Source: Halorubrum depositum (lineage in GTDB: Archaea > Halobacteriota > Halobacteria > Halobacteriales > Haloferacaceae). Taken from it: a stretch of 64,000 nt of DNA. A program made the translations under genes and the position numbers. The stretch spans positions 992,001-1,056,000 of the forward strand of contig NZ_VCNM01000002.1 in NCBI RefSeq assembly GCF_007671725.1. Reading direction: 5' to 3'. Of the stretch, positions 47,330-56,436 are shown in pieces (the first letter of the stretch is position 1; the number at the start of each line of letters is the position of its first letter). The notes below the pieces were generated by a model. It was given only the letters and a program-made list of their open reading frames with translations, did no database searches and was not told where the DNA came from.

Positions 47330-47902
47330 GTGACACTCCCGATATGGAGGCTTACTCGGACTTCATTTGGCCACTGGGTGTTTGATACGCTCGCGAATGC
47401 GGGGGTGATGTTTTCACGACTTGAGCAGTTCGAACACGCACTCAACGGACCGGTCCCAGACACATCCGTTCCCGACGAGATCTCACTTCGCGTTGATGCT
47501 CCAGAAACGTTCGCTCTTACAGGTCGAATGGACCGTCCGGAACTGTCCGATCGGGACCGAATCGCCGTCGCGGTCGCCGACGACGCAATCGTCGGCGTCC
47601 AGCCCGTGACCGTAGATCGCCCCTTCTACGTCGAGCCACTCGAGCAAGCGATCGAGTTTAATGGTGCCTACTTTTGGGGACTGTACGTCACTCCCGAGTG
47701 GCGTCGTCGGGGCGTTGCGACGGCGCTCGTCGCCCGAGCGCTCTCGTTCGTCGCGAACGAGACGTCGCAAACGCGCGTCCAGACGCTGGTTGGCATCGAC
47801 AACACCCCGTCGAAGCGCGTTCTGACGGGTGTGGGCTTCGAACGAAAGCGCACTCGATCGTACTATCAGGTGTTCGGATTTCAACGCAGAGGGCAATCGT
47901 AG
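47330..47902 (+). CDS. GNAT-family N-acetyltransferase
   Basis: A 190-residue acetyltransferase starting with GTG. The acetyl-CoA-binding segment is WGLYVTPEWRRRGVATALVARAL (R/Q-x-x-G-x-A variant), followed by VQTLVGIDNTPSKRVLTGVGFERKRTRSYY. The gene uses more A/T-ending codons than its neighbours (for example GTTTGATACGCTCGCG near 47380), suggesting transfer. Its stop is 1 nt before the GTG of the PssA-like gene, so the pair form an operon. Confidence 0.82.
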   Translation: MTLPIWRLTRTSFGHWVFDTLANAGVMFSRLEQFEHALNGPVPDTSVPDEISLRVDAPETFALTGRMDRPELSDRDRIAVAVADDAIVGVQPVTVDRPFYVEPLEQAIEFNGAYFWGLYVTPEWRRRGVATALVARALSFVANETSQTRVQTLVGIDNTPSKRVLTGVGFERKRTRSYYQVFGFQRRGQS

Positions 47903-47903
47903 G

Positions 47904-48485
47904 GTGTTCCGCCGACTCGCTCTCGCGGACTACGCCACGCTCATCGGATTGGGGCTGGGATGGACGGCTGTCAGCCTGTTCCTGCAGGGCGACCCCGACG
48001 CGGCAACGCTGACGCTGCTTCTCGCGTTCCTGTGTGACAAGGCCGACGGTTGTCTGGCACGACGCGGATACGGTTCGTCGCTCGGAGCCCACCTCGACGC
48101 GTTGGCGGACGTGGTGATCTATCTCGTTCCGGCCGCGGTCGTCGTGTCCGACCTCCTCACCGGGGGAGCTGTGTTCGAGAGCCTCGCCGGGGCAGTCATC
48201 CTCGGGTTCGGCGTCTTGCGATTGGCCCGCTACTCCGACGACGACACGGCCGCCGGCGACGAGACGCCGTACTACCGGGGTATTACTGCTTTCCACGTCG
48301 CCGCTTGGGCGCTCGTCGTCCGGTTAGCCGTCGTATCGACCGCCCTCCCGTCGCTGATCGGAGCGGTTTCGATCGTCGTCGTCACACCGCTGATGGTCGC
48401 TCCGTTTCGTATCTACGCTACCAGGAAACAGTTGGTCGGTGCCGTCATTACCGGCTCCGTGATCGCTGTAGGGGTGCTCGTGTGA
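47904..48485 (+). CDS. CDP-alcohol phosphatidyltransferase (PssA-like)
   Basis: A 193-residue integral membrane enzyme. The catalytic motif is DKADGCLARRGYGSSLGAHLDALAD (residues about 47-71), spread over the first helices, with FRRLALADYATLIGLGLGWTA before it. It transfers a head group, such as serine or inositol phosphate, to a CDP-archaeol lipid. The GTG start at 47904 was chosen because it follows the GNAT stop closely; longer versions overlap that gene. About five to six helices are seen. Archaetidylserine synthase is the likely role. Confidence 0.82.
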   Translation: MFRRLALADYATLIGLGLGWTAVSLFLQGDPDAATLTLLLAFLCDKADGCLARRGYGSSLGAHLDALADVVIYLVPAAVVVSDLLTGGAVFESLAGAVILGFGVLRLARYSDDDTAAGDETPYYRGITAFHVAAWALVVRLAVVSTALPSLIGAVSIVVVTPLMVAPFRIYATRKQLVGAVITGSVIAVGVLV

Positions 48486-48724: not shown

Positions 48725-50011
48725 TCACTCCCGGCGGGCGTCGTCGCTCCCGGGTCCGTCTCCCGTTGCCGCATCCGCGGACTCGTCGGCGGCGTCCTCG
48801 GCGCCGATTCCGTCTTCGGCTCCGATTCCGCCCTCAACGCCGGTACCGTCCTCGATACTCCCCGCCTCGTCGACGGACGCGAGGTCGTCGACGTCGGGGG
48901 CGTCGCCGTCTTCGCCTTCCTCCAGATCGCCGACCGCCGGGGGCGACGGCGGTCGGTAGGTGTAGACGAAGTCGCCGGCCACGGCGTGGTACGCGCCCGT
49001 CTCGGGGTCGTCCACGACGCCGGTGTCGTTGTCGATGGCGAAGTCCACGAGGTCGCGGAGGCTCTCCGCCTCCGCCTCGGGGCGCTCGTGGACGGACGCC
49101 GGGAGCCGGAACGTCGTGATCCACTCCGCGAACTCGGAGCGGTCGTCGCTGTACGCGAGGTAGTCGCGCTCGGCGGGCGTGAGCGCGAGGTCGCGCTCCC
49201 GACGGGCGTACGCCAGCCCGCCGGCCCCGACGAGGCCGACGAGGAGCAGGATCGGCCCGCCGATCGACCGGAGGGGGCCGTAGCTCCGCTCGACGGTCAC
49301 CGGCTCCGTGCGCTCCGAGGTGTCCGACTGAACGCCGGGGTCCGAGACGGAGTAGGTGTCGCCGCCGTGGTCGAGCCCCAGCTCGATCGTCCGGGCGTAC
49401 GAGGTCTGCTCGCCGTTGATCGCGCCCTCGAGCGCCACGTCGGTGACGACGAACGTCTCCGTCTCGCCCGGCGACGCGCCGAGCTCCTCTTCGATCTCGG
49501 CCGCGGTCGCGTCCACCTCGCTGCTGTTGAGCGCGAACGACGCCGTCGCGGTCTCCCCGGGCTCGACGTCCGAGACCGTCTCCGACGCCAGCGTCCGCCG
49601 GTCGCTCCAGTAGACGACGTTCCCGTCCTCGCCGACGCTGCGGACGACGAGGACGGAGTCGAGCCGGACGTCGACGTTCGACGCGGACGCGGCCGCGTAC
49701 GTCGTCTCGACGTCGACGTCGAGCACGGGAGCGACCCGCGTGAAGTACGTGTCGCGATCGTCGAGGGCGGTCCCGACCTCGAACACCGAGTTCGGCTCGG
49801 TCACCTCGGCGGAGTGGTTGTACGCCGTCTCGACGGTGAACGAGGAGACGGTCCGCTCGCGGGTCTCGGTGCCGGGGTCGACGTGGGTCGCGTAGACGAG
49901 CCCGCCGCCTACGGCGGCCGCGATCAGCAGGACGGCGACGATCACGGCGAACTGTGCGTCCAGTACCGCGCGGAGCCGGAGTCGGGTCTCGTCTGGGGAT
50001 GAGGGGCTCAT
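48725..50011 (-). CDS. DUF5305 membrane protein, partner of signal peptidase
   Basis: A 428-residue protein with an N-terminal helix (FAVIVAVLLIAAAVGGGLVYA), an extracellular beta-rich domain (VSSFTVETAYNHSAEV, EPGETATASFALNSSEVDATAAEIEEELG) and a second helix (GGPILLLVGLVGAGGLAYA). The C-terminal region is cytoplasmic and acidic. This is the DUF5305 layout, from memory. It is encoded 4 nt after a signal peptidase gene, an arrangement I associate with SipW/TasA-like secretion loci. It may be a chaperone or anchor for the secreted proteins. Confidence 0.85.
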   Translation of the reverse strand: MSPSSPDETRLRLRAVLDAQFAVIVAVLLIAAAVGGGLVYATHVDPGTETRERTVSSFTVETAYNHSAEVTEPNSVFEVGTALDDRDTYFTRVAPVLDVDVETTYAAASASNVDVRLDSVLVVRSVGEDGNVVYWSDRRTLASETVSDVEPGETATASFALNSSEVDATAAEIEEELGASPGETETFVVTDVALEGAINGEQTSYARTIELGLDHGGDTYSVSDPGVQSDTSERTEPVTVERSYGPLRSIGGPILLLVGLVGAGGLAYARRERDLALTPAERDYLAYSDDRSEFAEWITTFRLPASVHERPEAEAESLRDLVDFAIDNDTGVVDDPETGAYHAVAGDFVYTYRPPSPPAVGDLEEGEDGDAPDVDDLASVDEAGSIEDGTGVEGGIGAEDGIGAEDAADESADAATGDGPGSDDARRE

Positions 50012-50015
50012 TCGG

Positions 50016-51179
50016 TCACCTGTATATCTGGCGGAGGAGCCGGCGATACAGCGGGGGTCTCTCGCGCGATTCTCGGGAGCGTATCCGCGCGGGCTCGCCG
50101 CGCAGCAGGACGAGCCCGAGGCCGACGACGACGCCGCCGAGCAGCCCGTCGATCGCGACGATCGGCGCCCACGGGTGGACGCCGTACAGCTCGTCGACCA
50201 CGCCGTGCGGGAGCACCGCGAGGTATCGGTGTTCGGCGACGAGCAGCCGGTAGTAGCCGGTCTCGGGCGGCGCGGTGAGCGTCACCGTGGTCGACGCCTC
50301 GCCGCGGCTTCCGACCGTGAGCCGCTGGGGGTCGACGTCGACACCGGGGCTCGCCGGAGTGACGTACGCGTACACCGGGACCAGTCCGGCGTTGGGGACG
50401 ACGTACTCCAGCTCCTGGCTCGTGCCGCGCTCGATGACGGTGGGGTTCTCCGACTCGAACTCGGCGCTCACGACGCCGTACTCCTGCGTGCCGGCCGGGA
50501 CGACCATCGCCGCGGTCGCGGTCGCCATCAGCACGATCGCGAGCACGGCGACGATCGCGAACACCGAGGTGCCGTCGTCGCGGGAGCGGTCCCGTTCGCG
50601 GGTCTCGCGAGAGTTCCGGTTCGCGTACCAGTCGGCAGCGTACGCGACCGCCGAGAGCGCGAAGAGGATGTACGCCAGTCCCTGCGTTCCCTGGAACGAC
50701 CGGACCCCGAAGGTGACCGCCAGCCACGTCTGGAACGAGGCGAGCCCCGACTGGATCCCCATCGCGACGGTGCCCAGGTGCGGGATGACGACCACGCTCC
50801 CGCCGACCTGGAGCGCCACCGCGACGACGTCGGCGTCCTGCACCACGGGCTCGCCCCCGTCCTGATCGGTGAAGGGGTTGTTGTCGCCCTGCGTGACGTA
50901 CCCGCGTTCCGTCTCCTCGACGACGCGGTGGGTGGTTAATCCGCCGCCCTCGATCTCCTGCGCGTCGAACGTCACCACGTCGCCGACGCCGACGTCGCCG
51001 GCGAGCGGCGCGGGGATCGCGACGAACCCGTCGCCGGGGTCGAGGGTGGGCTGCATGCTGCCGGTCTCGACGAAGCTGAGCAGCACGGGCTGCCCGAGCA
51101 GCTGGCCGACGACCAGCGAGAGGACGACGAGGACGACCGCGACCTGCAGCGTTATCGAGAGGATGCGTTTCGGTGACAT
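50016..51179 (-). CDS. Signal peptidase I, SipW/archaeal type
   Basis: A 387-residue membrane peptidase. After the first helix (SITLQVAVVLVVLSLVVG) comes the catalytic Ser in FVETGSMQPTLDPGDGF. LTTHRVVEE carries the His that replaces Lys in archaeal and ER-type enzymes, and GYVTQGDNNPFTD follows. A C-terminal extension unusual for housekeeping signal peptidases holds further helices and a beta domain (VSAEFESENPTVIERGTSQELEY). The location among SipW-substrate-like proteins suggests a dedicated peptidase. Confidence 0.92.
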   Translation of the reverse strand: MSPKRILSITLQVAVVLVVLSLVVGQLLGQPVLLSFVETGSMQPTLDPGDGFVAIPAPLAGDVGVGDVVTFDAQEIEGGGLTTHRVVEETERGYVTQGDNNPFTDQDGGEPVVQDADVVAVALQVGGSVVVIPHLGTVAMGIQSGLASFQTWLAVTFGVRSFQGTQGLAYILFALSAVAYAADWYANRNSRETRERDRSRDDGTSVFAIVAVLAIVLMATATAAMVVPAGTQEYGVVSAEFESENPTVIERGTSQELEYVVPNAGLVPVYAYVTPASPGVDVDPQRLTVGSRGEASTTVTLTAPPETGYYRLLVAEHRYLAVLPHGVVDELYGVHPWAPIVAIDGLLGGVVVGLGLVLLRGEPARIRSRESRERPPLYRRLLRQIYR

Positions 51180-51345
51180 ATGGCGTGGGCTGGCGCGGAC
51201 GTTGCGATCCGGGCGTCGGTTCCTCTTCGGTTCGCCACGGGTCTCCGATCATGGAATGTAATCGACACGTTATAAATTCGGGGTTCGGAGCAGGACGTGG
51301 CGGGAGTTCGGCGGTCCGGGGCCCTTTCGGCGGTCCCGCTCGGTC

Positions 51346-52245
51346 TCACTCGCCGAACGCCCCGATCGCGAGCAGCGCGAAGGAGCCGATGAAGGCCAGA
51401 CAGAAGCCGAGCAGGTGGACGTAGAGGTTCACGACGCTCCCCGCGCCGGTCGGGTCGCCCGGGAATCCGACGACGGGATAGCCGAGGACGAGGACCGCGC
51501 CGACGGCGAACAGGTCGCCCTCGCCCGGCCGCGAGGCGACCGCGCGGACGCCCTCGCGGACGGTCTCGCGGACCGACGTCCCGGCGCTCGACGCGTAGAG
51601 GACCGCGAGGAGCGCGCCAGCGACGCCCGTGGCAAGTCCGGCGAGCCCGAGGCCGGTCGTCGACACCGGGAGCGCGAGCAGCGCGATCCAGCCGACGAGC
51701 GCGAAGAAGACCGCGGGCAGCGCGCGGAGCGACGCTCCCGGAGCGAACCGCTCGCGGGCGTACGTCCCGAGCAGCAGCGGGAGCAGTCCCGCGAGCGCCA
51801 TGTTGATCCCGGAGAAGCCGAAGCCGATCGCGTCCCGCGGGACGGCGAGGTTCAGCGCCGAGAGGACGAACGGGAACGCCGAGAGGAACGTCGCCAGCGC
51901 GGTCAGGAAGAAGCGGCGCGACCCGCCCAGCACCGCGAGCGCGTAGCCGACGCCCGCGAGCAGGCAGTAGCCCGCCACGTTGCCGGCGAGGTGCCCCGCG
52001 TCGAGGTGGACGTAGTGCGAGGCGAAGGCGCTCCGGAGCGTCGGGTCGGCGTACGCGAACGCGAGCGACCGGCGGGTCGCCTCCGGGAGCGAGAAGGCCG
52101 CGAGCAGGACCGCCGGCACCGCGAGCAGGACGAACAGGTCGACCGCCCTGACGCTCGCGAGCAGTTCCCGCCGGAAGTCGCGGTCCGCGTCCCGACCCGT
52201 CTCGGCGGCGCCGCGGTCGCGCTCGTCGATCGGAGACGCCGTCAC
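51346..52245 (-). CDS. Rhomboid-family intramembrane serine protease
   Basis: A 299-residue protein with about seven helices. Rhomboid marks are the HYVHLDAGHLAGNVAGY helix (H-x-H/HLxxN motif), the catalytic Ser in FGFSGINMA (GxSG) and the partner His in NLYVHLLGFCLAFIG. The N-terminal 35 residues are charged and cytoplasmic. It would cut substrate membrane helices. It lies between the signal peptidase and the PGF-pre-PGF gene on the same strand, so processing of their products is plausible but inferred. Confidence 0.85.
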   Translation of the reverse strand: MTASPIDERDRGAAETGRDADRDFRRELLASVRAVDLFVLLAVPAVLLAAFSLPEATRRSLAFAYADPTLRSAFASHYVHLDAGHLAGNVAGYCLLAGVGYALAVLGGSRRFFLTALATFLSAFPFVLSALNLAVPRDAIGFGFSGINMALAGLLPLLLGTYARERFAPGASLRALPAVFFALVGWIALLALPVSTTGLGLAGLATGVAGALLAVLYASSAGTSVRETVREGVRAVASRPGEGDLFAVGAVLVLGYPVVGFPGDPTGAGSVVNLYVHLLGFCLAFIGSFALLAIGAFGE

Positions 52246-52362
52246 GGCCGAGACCTCGGCGACCGGCGGGTAATACCTGTCGGCGCGCGTCTCGCTCGCG
52301 ATAACTGACGCCTCCCGGCCGCGGGCACGAGTTCGCGGTCGCCTCCCGAGCGCTCGCGCGCC

Positions 52363-53898
52363 TCACGACCGGGGCACCCGGCGGAACAGCGCGAGCCCGG
52401 TCACCGCGACGACGAGGGCGACGAGCAGCCCGCCGAGGTCGACGAAGTCGACGGCGCCGGGCTCCTCCGTGGGACCGTCGCCCGGCTCACCGGCGTCACC
52501 GAACCCGCCCGCCGCCGCGGACCCTCCCGCCTCGTCGCCAGCGCCGTTCCCCCTCGGGTCGCCGACGATCAGGGTGCCGACCGGCGTCCCGTCGACCGCG
52601 AGCTCGTACGCGCCGGCGGTCTCGAAGGTCCCGCCGAGCGCGACCGTCGCCGTCTCGTTCGGCGCGAGCGCGGCGGTCTCGTTCGCGACCGGGTCGCCGT
52701 CGGCGGTCAGCGTCACCACCTGCTCACCCGCCGCGCCGCCGCCGTTCTCGATCGTCGCTCGCACCGTCGCCTCGTCGCCGGGATCGATCGCCTCGGGCAC
52801 GACCGTCGCCTCGGTGACGTCGAACCGAGGCTCGCGCGCCGCGACCGCGAACGTCGAGAACTCCGTCGTCGTCGCGCGGAAGTGAACGCGGTCCTCGGGG
52901 AGTCCCGAGAGATCGACGACCTCCCCGTCGACGACCTCGACCGGCTTCTCCTCCCACTCGCCCGCGTCCGTCTGCCGGTAGAGCGTCACGTCCTCGGGAG
53001 CGGTCCCGGTCGCATTCAGGTGGTCCGGGTCCGCGCTGAACCGGATCGTCATCTCGTCGACCGCGCCGGGCGCGAAGTCGTGGTCGAGCGCGAGGTAGGC
53101 CATCGAGCGCGGCGTCGTCGACGTCCTCAACGCGCTCCCGCCCTCGAAGGTTTCCGGGCTCCCCGCCGCGTCGAGCTCGACGCGTTCGTTCCGGACGCCC
53201 GCCAGGTCGATCCCCTCCAGGGTGACGTCGTCGCCGGCGAGCGCCATCCCGTCGGCCCGGAACCGCACTGAGTCCCCGTGGTCGATCTCGCTCGCGGTGA
53301 ACTCGCGGCTGTCTGCGCTCGGGGCCGTGGTCGTCACGGTCGGGCCGTCGGCGCTGGTCTGCTGGTCCGCCGTATCCATCTCCGTCGCATCGTCGGGCTC
53401 CGCGAGCTTCGCCTCGATCGAGAACTCGTCGGCGCCCAGCCGCGTCCCGACGGTCGCGTCTCGGGTGTCGAACGCGAGGCCAACCGTGACGGTCTCGTTC
53501 GGCGCGAGCGTGACGCTGCTCTCGTTGCCCTCTATCGACTCGCCGTCGGCGACGAAGCTGACGTTCTCGCTGTCGTACTCGATCCACACGTGCGCGTACT
53601 GCTCGCCCGTGTACGTGATCTGGAATATTCCGGCGATCTGCCCGGTCGATCCGACGTTCAGCCCCTCGAAGTCGGTCGGAAGATCCGGATTCGCCGCCGA
53701 GACGTCGATCGCGATCTCGTGGTCGTCATTTAGATAGGCGTACTGCCCGTTCGGTCCGTCAACCGACTGGACCGCGAGGTCGCCGTCGGCGACGGTGTCG
53801 GCGTTGCTGTAGATGACCGCCGCCCCCGTGGTGAATATCAACGTGGTCGCCGCTACGAGAAGCAGGGCGAGGGTCAGGGTACGGTGGGCTGTCGACAT
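52363..53898 (-). CDS. Secreted/anchored protein with PGF-pre-PGF and CARDB-like domains
   Basis: A 511-residue surface protein. It has a signal or anchor helix near the N-terminus (LTLALLLVAATTLIFTTGAAV) and an N-terminal SipW-substrate-like domain (VADGDLAVQSVDGPNGQYAYL). A PGF-pre-PGF-like domain follows (VTLYRQTDAGEWEEKPVEVVDG...FRATTTEFSTFAVAA), then a CARDB-like beta repeat (PGDEATVRATIENGGGAAGE). A Gly-rich linker and C-terminal helix (VDLGGLLVALVVAVTGLALF) close the protein. The ATG at 53898 was chosen over one 24 nt upstream. It starts 44 nt after the secreted-protein gene at 53942. Confidence 0.8.
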   Translation of the reverse strand: MSTAHRTLTLALLLVAATTLIFTTGAAVIYSNADTVADGDLAVQSVDGPNGQYAYLNDDHEIAIDVSAANPDLPTDFEGLNVGSTGQIAGIFQITYTGEQYAHVWIEYDSENVSFVADGESIEGNESSVTLAPNETVTVGLAFDTRDATVGTRLGADEFSIEAKLAEPDDATEMDTADQQTSADGPTVTTTAPSADSREFTASEIDHGDSVRFRADGMALAGDDVTLEGIDLAGVRNERVELDAAGSPETFEGGSALRTSTTPRSMAYLALDHDFAPGAVDEMTIRFSADPDHLNATGTAPEDVTLYRQTDAGEWEEKPVEVVDGEVVDLSGLPEDRVHFRATTTEFSTFAVAAREPRFDVTEATVVPEAIDPGDEATVRATIENGGGAAGEQVVTLTADGDPVANETAALAPNETATVALGGTFETAGAYELAVDGTPVGTLIVGDPRGNGAGDEAGGSAAAGGFGDAGEPGDGPTEEPGAVDFVDLGGLLVALVVAVTGLALFRRVPRS

Positions 53899-53941
53899 AT
53901 TCTTCAAAATACTGTTCGGCAATTACAGACAGTTGTTACAA

Positions 53942-54568
53942 TTACAGGCCGTCAGTGTCCGGAAGCGCACTTGCGTATATACCGACGTCGCTGGGAATGG
54001 CACTCTTATCTGTTGTCACATCGTCGGTTGCGTCTCCCTCATCCCGGAGGTAAAAGCTCACGTGTACGTACGCATCGTTACCAGGGTCCAATTCAAGATA
54101 GCCAGAGTTAGTACTCCCACTAGGACCATAGCTCGTATCGGCAAGTGGCTGTGGCGAATTAGGGAAGTACGTTTGGTCCGTTAGAGTAGTGCTATCGTCC
54201 GCGTCACTGGTGTATTTAAACACCATTGGGGAGTCACTCGGCACGTCTTGGAGTTGTGCACGAATCGTATTCGTGCCGTTATTCACGATGCGGAAGACAT
54301 TATGAAAACCCGTATCTGAATCAGGATTCAAACCATCACCATTCTGGCCATTCGACCCATCGAAAACGAGCTGCATTTTCTTATTCTGCTGAACCGCGTA
54401 TTCACTTATTGATGGATCCAGCCCGAGGTATGCCGCATTGTCGCCAGCGACATCCACGCTGATAGAACGGTCTACACGTGCAGTCGTGAACGCCCCCGTA
54501 CCCACTGCAGCTGCACTACCCGTAGCCAATGCGCCCAGACCGGCGATGAACTTGCGTCGGTTTGCCAT
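53942..54568 (-). CDS. DUF1102-like secreted protein, TasA/SipW-substrate type
   Basis: A 208-residue protein with a signal peptide (NRRKFIAGLGALATGSAAAV, Tat-like RR), then GTGAFTTARVDRSISVDVAGDNAAYLGLD, typical of DUF1102 and SipW-cognate proteins, and an all-beta mature part (FRIVNNGTNTIRAQLQ, VHVSFYLRDEG). The start MANRRKF was chosen over an ATG 54 nt upstream. The gene has visibly lower GC and more A/T-ending codons than its neighbours, pointing to horizontal transfer or diversifying selection. A fibre subunit is a reasonable hypothesis. Confidence 0.82.
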   Translation of the reverse strand: MANRRKFIAGLGALATGSAAAVGTGAFTTARVDRSISVDVAGDNAAYLGLDPSISEYAVQQNKKMQLVFDGSNGQNGDGLNPDSDTGFHNVFRIVNNGTNTIRAQLQDVPSDSPMVFKYTSDADDSTTLTDQTYFPNSPQPLADTSYGPSGSTNSGYLELDPGNDAYVHVSFYLRDEGDATDDVTTDKSAIPSDVGIYASALPDTDGL

Positions 54569-55035
54569 TTTGTTGACCTCGTGTTGTCCGCACACGACCC
54601 GCAGGCCGCCGACGCGAGACATCCTGCGTCACCCGGGGTCGCTCTACGACACCCATGGGCCCTATCCCATATCGTTATGAATTTCCAGAAACATTTCCGG
54701 AGGAGGCTGAACATCCGGCCGATCAGTTCCGCCCCCGCCTGAACCCAGATCCGATCGCTTCAGGCCGACCCTGGGATCCGTTCACGAGTCGTTCAGGACA
54801 CGCCGGAACCGGCAATCGTTGCTTCTGAGACGCGTCTGAATTTGACAGAAAGTGATAACTTGTCGGCGAACGAACCGCGATCTCGATTCACAAAAGACTG
54901 CATTTCCCGGATTACAGGCGACAATACGCGCAGATAGCGTGTTTTGACTGATGACTGTATAAACGTAGAGAAAGTTTGGCTGATTATCATAACCACGGGA
55001 TTTATGTTGACTTGTGAATATGTGTCTGACAGACA
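54569..55035. other. AT-richer divergent promoter region, 467 nt
   Basis: The gap lies between the secreted-protein gene and the divergent DUF7344 gene. It is AT-richer than the genome, with a TATA-like TTTATG at 55001-55006, 30-35 nt before the DUF7344 ATG. I see no ORF, tRNA or repeat in it. An unusually long upstream region may carry several regulator sites. Confidence 0.55.
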
Positions 55036-55617
55036 ATGGCGTCGGCACAGCAGATCGACGGGGGAGGGGCCGAACCGACGACGGAGGTGTCCGAGGACGA
55101 GCTGTTCGACGTCCTGGCGAATCAGCGTCGGTGGTTCGCGGTACACCTGCTGAAACGAGAGGAGGAGGACCGGGTCGCGATCGGCGAGATGGCCGAGCAG
55201 ATAGCGGCCTGGGAGAACGGGATCGAGACGACGGAGATCACGGGCAACGAGCGCAAGCGCGTCTACACCGCGCTCCAGCAGTCGCACCTGCCGAAGATGG
55301 ACGACGCGGGCGTCGTCGACTTCAACAAGGCCCGCGGCGTCATCGAGCCGACGCCCGCGCTGCAGAACGTCGACCTCTACATGGACGTCGTCGAAGGGAA
55401 GGAGATCCCCTGGAGCACCTACTATCTGGGGCTGTCGGGCGTCGCCGTCGCGCTCACCGGCGCGGTGTGGCTCGACGCGTGGCCGTTCGTCCTCCTGCCC
55501 GACATGGCGTGGATGATCGCCATCGTCGTGGCGTTCGCGTTCTCCGCCATCACGCACAAGTACTACACCGCGGAGATGAAAGTCGGCGAACCTGACGAAC
55601 CCCCCGAACTGACGTAG
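55036..55617 (+). CDS. DUF7344 winged-helix membrane protein
   Basis: A 193-residue protein. The N-terminal HTH-like part (SEDELFDVLANQRRWFAVHLLKREEEDRVAIGEMAEQIAAWEN, NERKRVYTALQQSHLPKMDDAGVVDFNKARG) is the DUF7344 domain, as I know it, followed by two helices (YYLGLSGVAVALTGAVWL, AWMIAIVVAFAFSAITHKYY). A membrane-bound DNA-binding regulator is plausible. It is divergent from the secreted-protein operon and sits beside another TasA-like gene, so it is the candidate local regulator. Confidence 0.85.
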   Translation: MASAQQIDGGGAEPTTEVSEDELFDVLANQRRWFAVHLLKREEEDRVAIGEMAEQIAAWENGIETTEITGNERKRVYTALQQSHLPKMDDAGVVDFNKARGVIEPTPALQNVDLYMDVVEGKEIPWSTYYLGLSGVAVALTGAVWLDAWPFVLLPDMAWMIAIVVAFAFSAITHKYYTAEMKVGEPDEPPELT

Positions 55618-55719
55618 GGCGTGGGGTTTCAGGCGGTGCCTTCTGCGGTTCCGGCGCCGTATAACCATGGGAACGGAACGCGTTGTGTCGATTGGACGAA
55701 GCGCGAATCGACGTTGGAC

Positions 55720-56436
55720 ATGAAACGCCGAAACCTCATCCTGCTGCTCGGCGGAGCGAGCTCCGGTGCGATGAGCGTCGGCACCGGCGCGTTCAGCAGC
55801 GTCGAGGCCGAGCGCGGCGTGGCGGTGAACGTCGTCGAGGACGAGAACGCGTATCTCGGCCTCGACGTTGAAACCAGAACCGCGACCGTCGGGCGACCGG
55901 CCGAGGTCGTGGAGATAACGAACAGCTTCGCTGACGGTCTCTCCCTCGACGTGTCCGTCGAGGAGATGAACGAGGTGGTGGGCGATGTCACCGTGGGCGA
56001 CGAGAACTTCGACGAGCCATTCTCGCTGGAACTGGCTCCGGGAGAGAGCGAGTCGGTGTCGATCACCTGCGGGCAGGTAGGAGACGCGTCGTTCACGCTG
56101 GGTTTCAGCGGGGAGACCGACGGGGCGTCGGTCGAAAAGACGCGGACGTTCGACGAGATTGACTGTCCGGTGAGCGAAGTGGATTTTAGAGGCAACGGGG
56201 CGGTTCACGTGGCTGGCGACTTCACCGGTCTCTCGGTAACCGTGGTGTTCGAAGGTGGCGGCGAAGAGGTCCGTTCGATCGCGTCGGACGACGGCGGCAA
56301 AGCCGTGCTTCACCCCCGAGGCGACGGCGGCGGTGGCGATCCCATCGACCGGGTCGCGATTGGGGCGGCCGTCTTCGAGCGTTCGGAGCCCGCGTCCGAC
56401 GACGGGGAGAGCGCCTCCTCGAACGGAGACAGCTGA
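55720..56436 (+). CDS. SipW-cognate/DUF1102-type secreted protein
   Basis: A 238-residue protein. The signal segment is MKRRNLILLLGGASSGAMSVGTGAFSSVEAERG, followed by VAVNVVEDENAYLGLDVETR, matching the N-terminal pattern of the protein at 53942. The mature part is beta-rich with paired Cys (SITCGQVGD, FDEIDCPVSE) and ends in a Ser/Asp-rich tail. The ATG at 55720 was chosen over an earlier one because it begins the signal peptide. It follows the DUF7344 gene and belongs to the same putative fibre locus. Confidence 0.8.
   Translation: MKRRNLILLLGGASSGAMSVGTGAFSSVEAERGVAVNVVEDENAYLGLDVETRTATVGRPAEVVEITNSFADGLSLDVSVEEMNEVVGDVTVGDENFDEPFSLELAPGESESVSITCGQVGDASFTLGFSGETDGASVEKTRTFDEIDCPVSEVDFRGNGAVHVAGDFTGLSVTVVFEGGGEEVRSIASDDGGKAVLHPRGDGGGGDPIDRVAIGAAVFERSEPASDDGESASSNGDS

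Follow-up and report, generated by a model that had tools for sequence, protein, structure and literature searches.

A gene cluster for a putative surface fibre occupies positions 48725–56436 of a 64-kb window from Halorubrum depositum (the whole stretch analysed; contig NZ_VCNM01000002.1, positions 992,001–1,056,000). All seven genes that an earlier note had named from the letters alone were found at their positions. Five lie on the minus strand, in the transcription order TafX1, an anchor protein, a rhomboid-like protein, a signal peptidase and a DUF5305 protein; a divergent plus-strand unit comprises a DUF7344 regulator and then TafX2 (TafX1 and TafX2 are names coined in this analysis). Tat-fimbriae (tafi) are described (Galeva et al., iScience 2025, as cited in PMC12687288) as thin surface filaments of haloarchaea, exported by the twin-arginine translocation (Tat) pathway, with TafA as the core subunit. 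The proposal in the earlier note that the cluster builds a TasA-like fibre gained support, as TafX1 is homologous over its length to a solved pilus, 9p0a, and the N-termini of the secreted proteins are donor-like.

TafX1 (53942–54568, minus strand, true start at about 54568) is a secreted protein and the presumed shaft subunit. Its sequence matched the solved chain 9p0a almost end to end (phmmer expectation value (E) 1.1e-13). A profile of 44 mature TafX1 relatives, from which the signal peptides had been removed, matched 9p0a at 9.1e-20, so the match is not confined to the signal. In the fold search with the predicted TafX1 model, the first rank was again 9p0a, the Tafi pilus of Natrinema sp. 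J7-2 (Foldseek 3.4e-7, probability 1.00; VIA-align Z 10.6, 146 aligned residues, root-mean-square deviation 3.9). The bundling pilus of Pyrobaculum (7ueg, E 2.7e-4, Z 7.8) and the Sulfolobus 0406 filament (7pnb, E 1.3e-3, Z 7.5) followed at ranks 2 and 3, both without a sequence match, and the TasA fibre 8aur was found at rank 29 (E 0.11). The pilus of Pyrobaculum, to which the earlier note had pointed, is thus the next structural neighbour; the closest known system is tafi. Both TafX1 and TafX2 matched the NCBIfam TafA, TafC and TafE models (best E 1.1e-12 and 8.3e-10, respectively), and no other protein of the genome matched the TafA model. They had been described as two DUF1102/SipW-cognate secreted proteins; the secreted-type pair was recovered with its Taf-model matches, but DUF1102 was below threshold in one (15.5 bits) and absent in the other. 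Taken together, the homology of TafX1 to the Tafi pilin, the Taf-model matches, the accessory genes, the donor-like N-termini, the twin-arginine signals and the synteny make it likely that the locus produces a cell-surface fibre of the Tat-fimbria/TasA/bundling-pilus type, in which the subunits would polymerise.

Several results weigh against this interpretation. No Taf equivalog cut-off was reached by the subunits of the window (best bits 40 against 190 for TafA, 38 against 410 for TafC and 48 against 155 for TafE; no match for TafF). The best NCBIfam family among the 44 mature TafX1-type proteins was TafE in 36 and TafA in only 3; TafE is labelled an adapter and TafA a core subunit in NCBIfam, and TafX1 may thus not be the shaft. 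Furthermore, the N-terminal part of the TafX1 model had only middling confidence, and the case for kinship between TafX2 and 9p0a depends on the first 31 residues of mature TafX2. The TafE majority would suit a short surface adhesin complex, in which TafX1, present in few copies, is a TafE-like adapter linking TafX2 to the anchor and no true shaft exists; moreover, a single TafX1 is encoded in the window locus, where no separate TafA passes the cut-off, and other loci have two or three copies. We regard such a complex as unlikely, because TafX1 is closest to a polymerising pilin, that of Natrinema, and its N-terminus carries the full donor motif.

The precursors in the window contain the twin-arginine motifs NRRKF and KRRNL, and RR-x-hydrophobic was found ahead of the hydrophobic region (h-region) in 86 of 89 Taf-like precursors of the relatives. 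The h-regions were weakly hydrophobic and rich in Gly and Ala, and there were weak matches to Tat-signal models. As the signals are of the twin-arginine kind, export by Tat is likely. The same fibre might instead be exported unfolded by Sec, since a SipW-type peptidase serves the Sec-exported TasA in Bacillus (PMC10269814); the features of the signals, together with the Tat dependence reported for tafi (as cited in PMC12687288), make this route quite improbable. The signal peptide of TafX1 (54491–54568, minus strand) extends up to a cut between GTGA and F, as judged from the RR pattern in relatives and the chain start of 9p0a. The cut-site search pattern admitted Phe, Tyr or Trp behind G(T/S)G-x, and Phe was present in all 89 Taf-like precursors. 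The bacterial peptidase LepB copes poorly with an aromatic residue in this position; TasA, which has Phe there, is served by a peptidase of its own, SipW (PMC10269814). The alignment of 9p0a starts at residue 28, a Phe aligning with that of TafX1, which fits a cut between GTGA and F; 188 of its 215 residues are resolved, and the remaining part is presumably the signal peptide.

The mature N-termini share the motif R-x-φ-x-φ-x-φ. Their first 25 residues are the best-conserved part (mean majority fraction 0.61 against 0.30 for the rest in TafX1, and 0.76 against 0.35 in TafX2), and the remainder of both proteins is very variable. Positions 11, 13 and 15 were hydrophobic in 98, 95 and 82% of TafX1-type proteins and in 100% each of TafX2-type proteins, against just 0–2% at positions 10, 12 and 14. 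Mature residues 1–22, the presumed donor strands (54428–54493, minus strand, in TafX1; 55789–55854, plus strand, in TafX2), formed no strand in either predicted monomer (predicted local distance difference test score (pLDDT) approximately 72–81 and 50, respectively), and the beta-sandwich started at residue 23 in both. A conserved, alternating and unpaired N-terminus matches the expectation for a donor strand, and the TasA fibre and the Sulfolobus thread are joined by donor strands (PMC9674648, PMC9715654). In sequence and model, the two mature N-termini thus resemble free donor strands, which would insert into a neighbouring subunit. The donor motif was detected in 45 of 52 TafX1-type proteins, 24 of 25 TafX2-type proteins and none of 31 anchors; these counts describe the sets and are not an independent test, as the cut-site pattern served to collect the subunits, and the anchors were chosen for their similarity to that of the window. 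The all-beta mature parts and GTGAF N-termini, on which the fibre proposal had partly been based, agreed with the models, which were nearly all beta with unpaired N-termini. The mature proteins start with an extended segment in the models, and no long N-terminal hydrophobic helix of the type IV pilin kind was present; for this reason, and on fold and homology, a type IV pilus or archaellum was dropped as a candidate.

TafX2 (55720–56436, plus strand, true start at about 55720) is a two-domain secreted protein in the position of TafC and the presumed tip or initiator. It matched the TafC, TafE and TafA models at 1e-9 to 8e-10, below their cut-offs. Its model (pLDDT 85) consists of an immunoglobulin-like (Ig-like) domain at residues 21–130 and a small second beta domain, and the former aligned to many closed Ig-like domains with Z of 8–10. 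Neither 9p0a nor TasA ranked among the 50 best fold matches of TafX2; this does not speak against kinship. By analogy, this architecture recalls TapA and Saci_0405, considered donor-only proteins that give a strand but receive none. Because it is mostly the N-terminus of TafX2 that matches the fibre models, and its Ig-like domain is similar to many domains of unrelated proteins, one could suppose that the secreted proteins are soluble or singly anchored (enzymes, inhibitors or S-layer associates) and share just a signal-processing module with fibre subunits. This is very improbable given that TafX1 is homologous to the pilin over its full length, that a conserved donor-like segment stands behind the cut site, and that the Pfam and NCBIfam scans gave no enzyme family for either protein. 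A soluble enzyme was likewise dropped on fold and homology.

The families that had been assigned to the peptidase, the DUF5305 protein and the DUF7344 helix-turn-helix (HTH) regulator were all confirmed by family models. The signal peptidase (50016–51179, minus strand), the presumed cutter of the fibre precursors, scored 57.4 bits with the archaeal model TIGR02228 (cut-off 51.85), and its Ser41, His84 and Asp99 each showed conservation of at least 95% across 60 relatives. Its score with the Bacillus SipW equivalog was 31.2 bits against a cut-off of 190; it is an archaeal-type relative. The DUF5305 membrane protein (48725–50011, minus strand; PF17231, 185.9 bits) is the presumed partner of the peptidase; in most loci of the two clades described below, its gene comes after that of the peptidase, and it probably works with that enzyme. 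The rhomboid claim also stood: the protein encoded at 51346–52245 (minus strand) had no Pfam match of its own, and was placed as a divergent rhomboid protease by a relative (L041) with PF01694 above cut-off (30.5 bits) and by the catalytic motifs (HxxxN, GxSG and His), which its relatives retain. As a guess, it could cut the stem of the anchor, for release or processing of that protein. The anchor (52363–53898, minus strand) likely starts at 53898, the ATG used by relatives, in place of the listed 53922. It is a membrane-anchored Taf/DUF1102 protein with a hydrophobic C-terminus, the presumed fibre base and counterpart of TafF. DUF1102 (23.0 bits, cut-off 22.2) and CARDB (30.6 bits, cut-off 22.7) were above threshold; the match of this protein, the "PGF-pre-PGF membrane protein" of the earlier note, to the PGF-pre-PGF model was below cut-off (24.6 against 28). 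The absence of a donor motif from its sequence fits a presumed base that accepts the last strand. No solved relative of the rhomboid, the peptidase or the anchor was found by sequence searches.

On the basis of these results, we propose the following assembly model. The TafX1 and TafX2 precursors would probably be exported folded by Tat and remain tethered by their signal peptides. The SipW-type peptidase, probably assisted by DUF5305, would cut at or next to the bond between GTGA and F, and the residues behind the cut would be freed as a donor strand that fills the open groove of the next subunit. Since its Ig-like domain is closed, TafX2 would only donate and would stand at one end as the tip or initiator; TafX1 would both donate and accept, forming the shaft; and the Taf/CARDB anchor would accept the last strand as the base. 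The lack of the donor motif in all 31 anchors suggests this order of tip, shaft and base, an assignment reached from sequence alone. The rhomboid may release fibres by cutting the anchor stem, and DUF7344 would control the divergent units. In such a model, a signal peptidase dedicated to the system is what frees the donor strand of a Tat-exported subunit that is probably already folded.

The relation to tafi was examined in detail. Two features of tafi in the wide sense, a main subunit homologous to the Tafi pilin and twin-arginine precursor signals, are present; a third, Tat-dependent export with filaments on the cell, is presumed. The stricter features of the TafA clade are not: the TafA, TafC, TafE and TafF cut-offs were not reached, and the peptidase lies outside the TafA-linked clade. 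In a tree of 60 peptidases, TafA-linked loci and compact loci were split with 100/99 support, and the window peptidase fell into the compact clade; some genomes (G309 and G094) carry both kinds of locus. One locus of G309 (L039) was above the cut-offs for TafA (246 bits), TafE (223), TafC (552) and TafF (562), and the gene behind its DUF7344 regulator encodes TafC with a LamG lectin domain, the position held by TafX2 in the window. True tafi loci contain the same families of peptidase, DUF5305 and DUF7344 proteins, and some of them also that of the rhomboid. The window locus resembles tafi in its homologous subunits, RR signals, accessory families, two-domain protein behind the regulator and membrane-anchored Taf protein. 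It differs in that its peptidase belongs to a separate clade, its subunits are below the Taf equivalog cut-offs with no separate TafA, its anchor has PGF/CARDB parts in place of TafF, TafX2 has no LamG domain, and the rhomboid gene sits inside the main operon. Most likely, the locus is a sister variant of the recently described Tat-fimbriae rather than a system of a new kind; its machinery is conserved, whereas its subunits vary strongly. A literature search gave no primary paper on the compact clade. Some Taf-like secreted proteins of related loci have swapped C-terminal domains, namely bactofilin repeats (L047:14162-15826) or LamG lectin domains (L051:882-2072 and L039:10426-11565), which hints at an exchange of adhesive ends.

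Archaeal bundling pili and threads have a beta-sandwich subunit fold similar to that predicted for TafX1 (the Z of 7.8 and 7.5 above) and an N-terminal donor strand, as presumed for TafX1, and the Sulfolobus thread system has a donor-only cap, as proposed for TafX2. In contrast, no sequence match was found, the genetic setting is different, and the thread subunit is predicted to be Sec-exported. The TasA/TapA/SipW system of Bacillus subtilis is similar in its dedicated SipW-type peptidase and in the Phe that is the second residue after the cut, and it has a donor-strand fibre and a donor-only starter, TapA, as proposed for the window locus, but it is Sec-exported, its SipW equivalog cut-off was not reached by the window peptidase, and TasA appeared in the fold search only at the low rank given above.

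The regulator, anchor, rhomboid, peptidase and DUF5305 genes co-occurred in 29 of the 50 related loci collected, and 38 of 52 genomes of the genus contained a full-length match to the peptidase with an identity of 72% or more; therefore, the cluster is not a chance assembly. The nearest named relatives of the peptidase are those of Halorubrum sp. Hd13 (94%) and Hrr. yunnanense (91%). The gene order TafX2-regulator/TafX1 (one to three copies)-anchor-rhomboid-peptidase-DUF5305 is common to Halorubrum, Halobellus, Haloarcula and Halomicroarcula, although TafX1 was on the opposite side or not detected in some of these loci. In several Halorubrum loci, an ATP-binding cassette (ABC) ATPase gene and purL flank the TafX2 side, which indicates that the chromosomal place is conserved while the number and sequence of the subunits vary. 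Within the genus, the peptidase was mostly 80–94% identical and the subunits approximately 40–55%. With one peptidase match and one DUF5305 in its genome, the window locus is the sole locus of this kind there. These results extend Tat-fimbriae to a compact clade widespread in Halorubrum and related genera, and the contrast between conserved machinery and variable subunits makes the locus suited to the study of how archaeal surface structures diversify. We tentatively suggest a broader possibility, namely that donor-strand fibres exported by Tat in haloarchaea have a second clade, so far unstudied, with the dedicated peptidase as the assembly switch. The subunits would leave the cell folded, and cleavage alone would free the donor strand, so that no chaperone or usher is required; the rhomboid would then shed the fibre from its anchor, and the shaft and tip subunits would diversify fast while the machine and its chromosomal location stay conserved.

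The regulator (55036–55617, plus strand; PF24035, 99.1 bits) was encoded in almost every locus of the two clades. It ends in two hydrophobic stretches, a C-terminal hairpin, and hence may be a membrane-bound HTH protein; it could sense the state of the envelope or the fibre. The palindrome TGTCTGACA (55023–55031, plus strand) lies between a TATA-like TTTATG (55001–55006) and the ATG of the regulator. It is the sole copy in the window (0.14 expected) and was conserved at the same place in approximately 16 Halorubrum and Halobellus loci, being rare elsewhere in them; from this pattern, it is possibly an autoregulatory operator. The region between the divergent genes was also searched for a promoter that is invertible or driven by repeats, an idea that was rejected, as just short repeats of chance size were seen there. 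The G+C content falls to 0.586 at 54001–56000 and to 0.53 in the intergenic region 54569–55035, compared with approximately 0.70 in the window; this dip at the variable subunit genes and the promoter region may be a mark of DNA exchange or of no more than the promoter itself.

A second DUF1102 protein (29.8 bits, 217-residue frame) is encoded in the same genome (L001, G000:C1:966564-966944), away from any peptidase match of the locus kind. Near the fibre locus, positions 47829–48485 encode a CDP-alcohol phosphatidyltransferase related to archaetidylserine synthases, with approximately 53 bits, far below the synthase cut-offs of 200–240. A tRNA-Gln gene lies just outside the locus.

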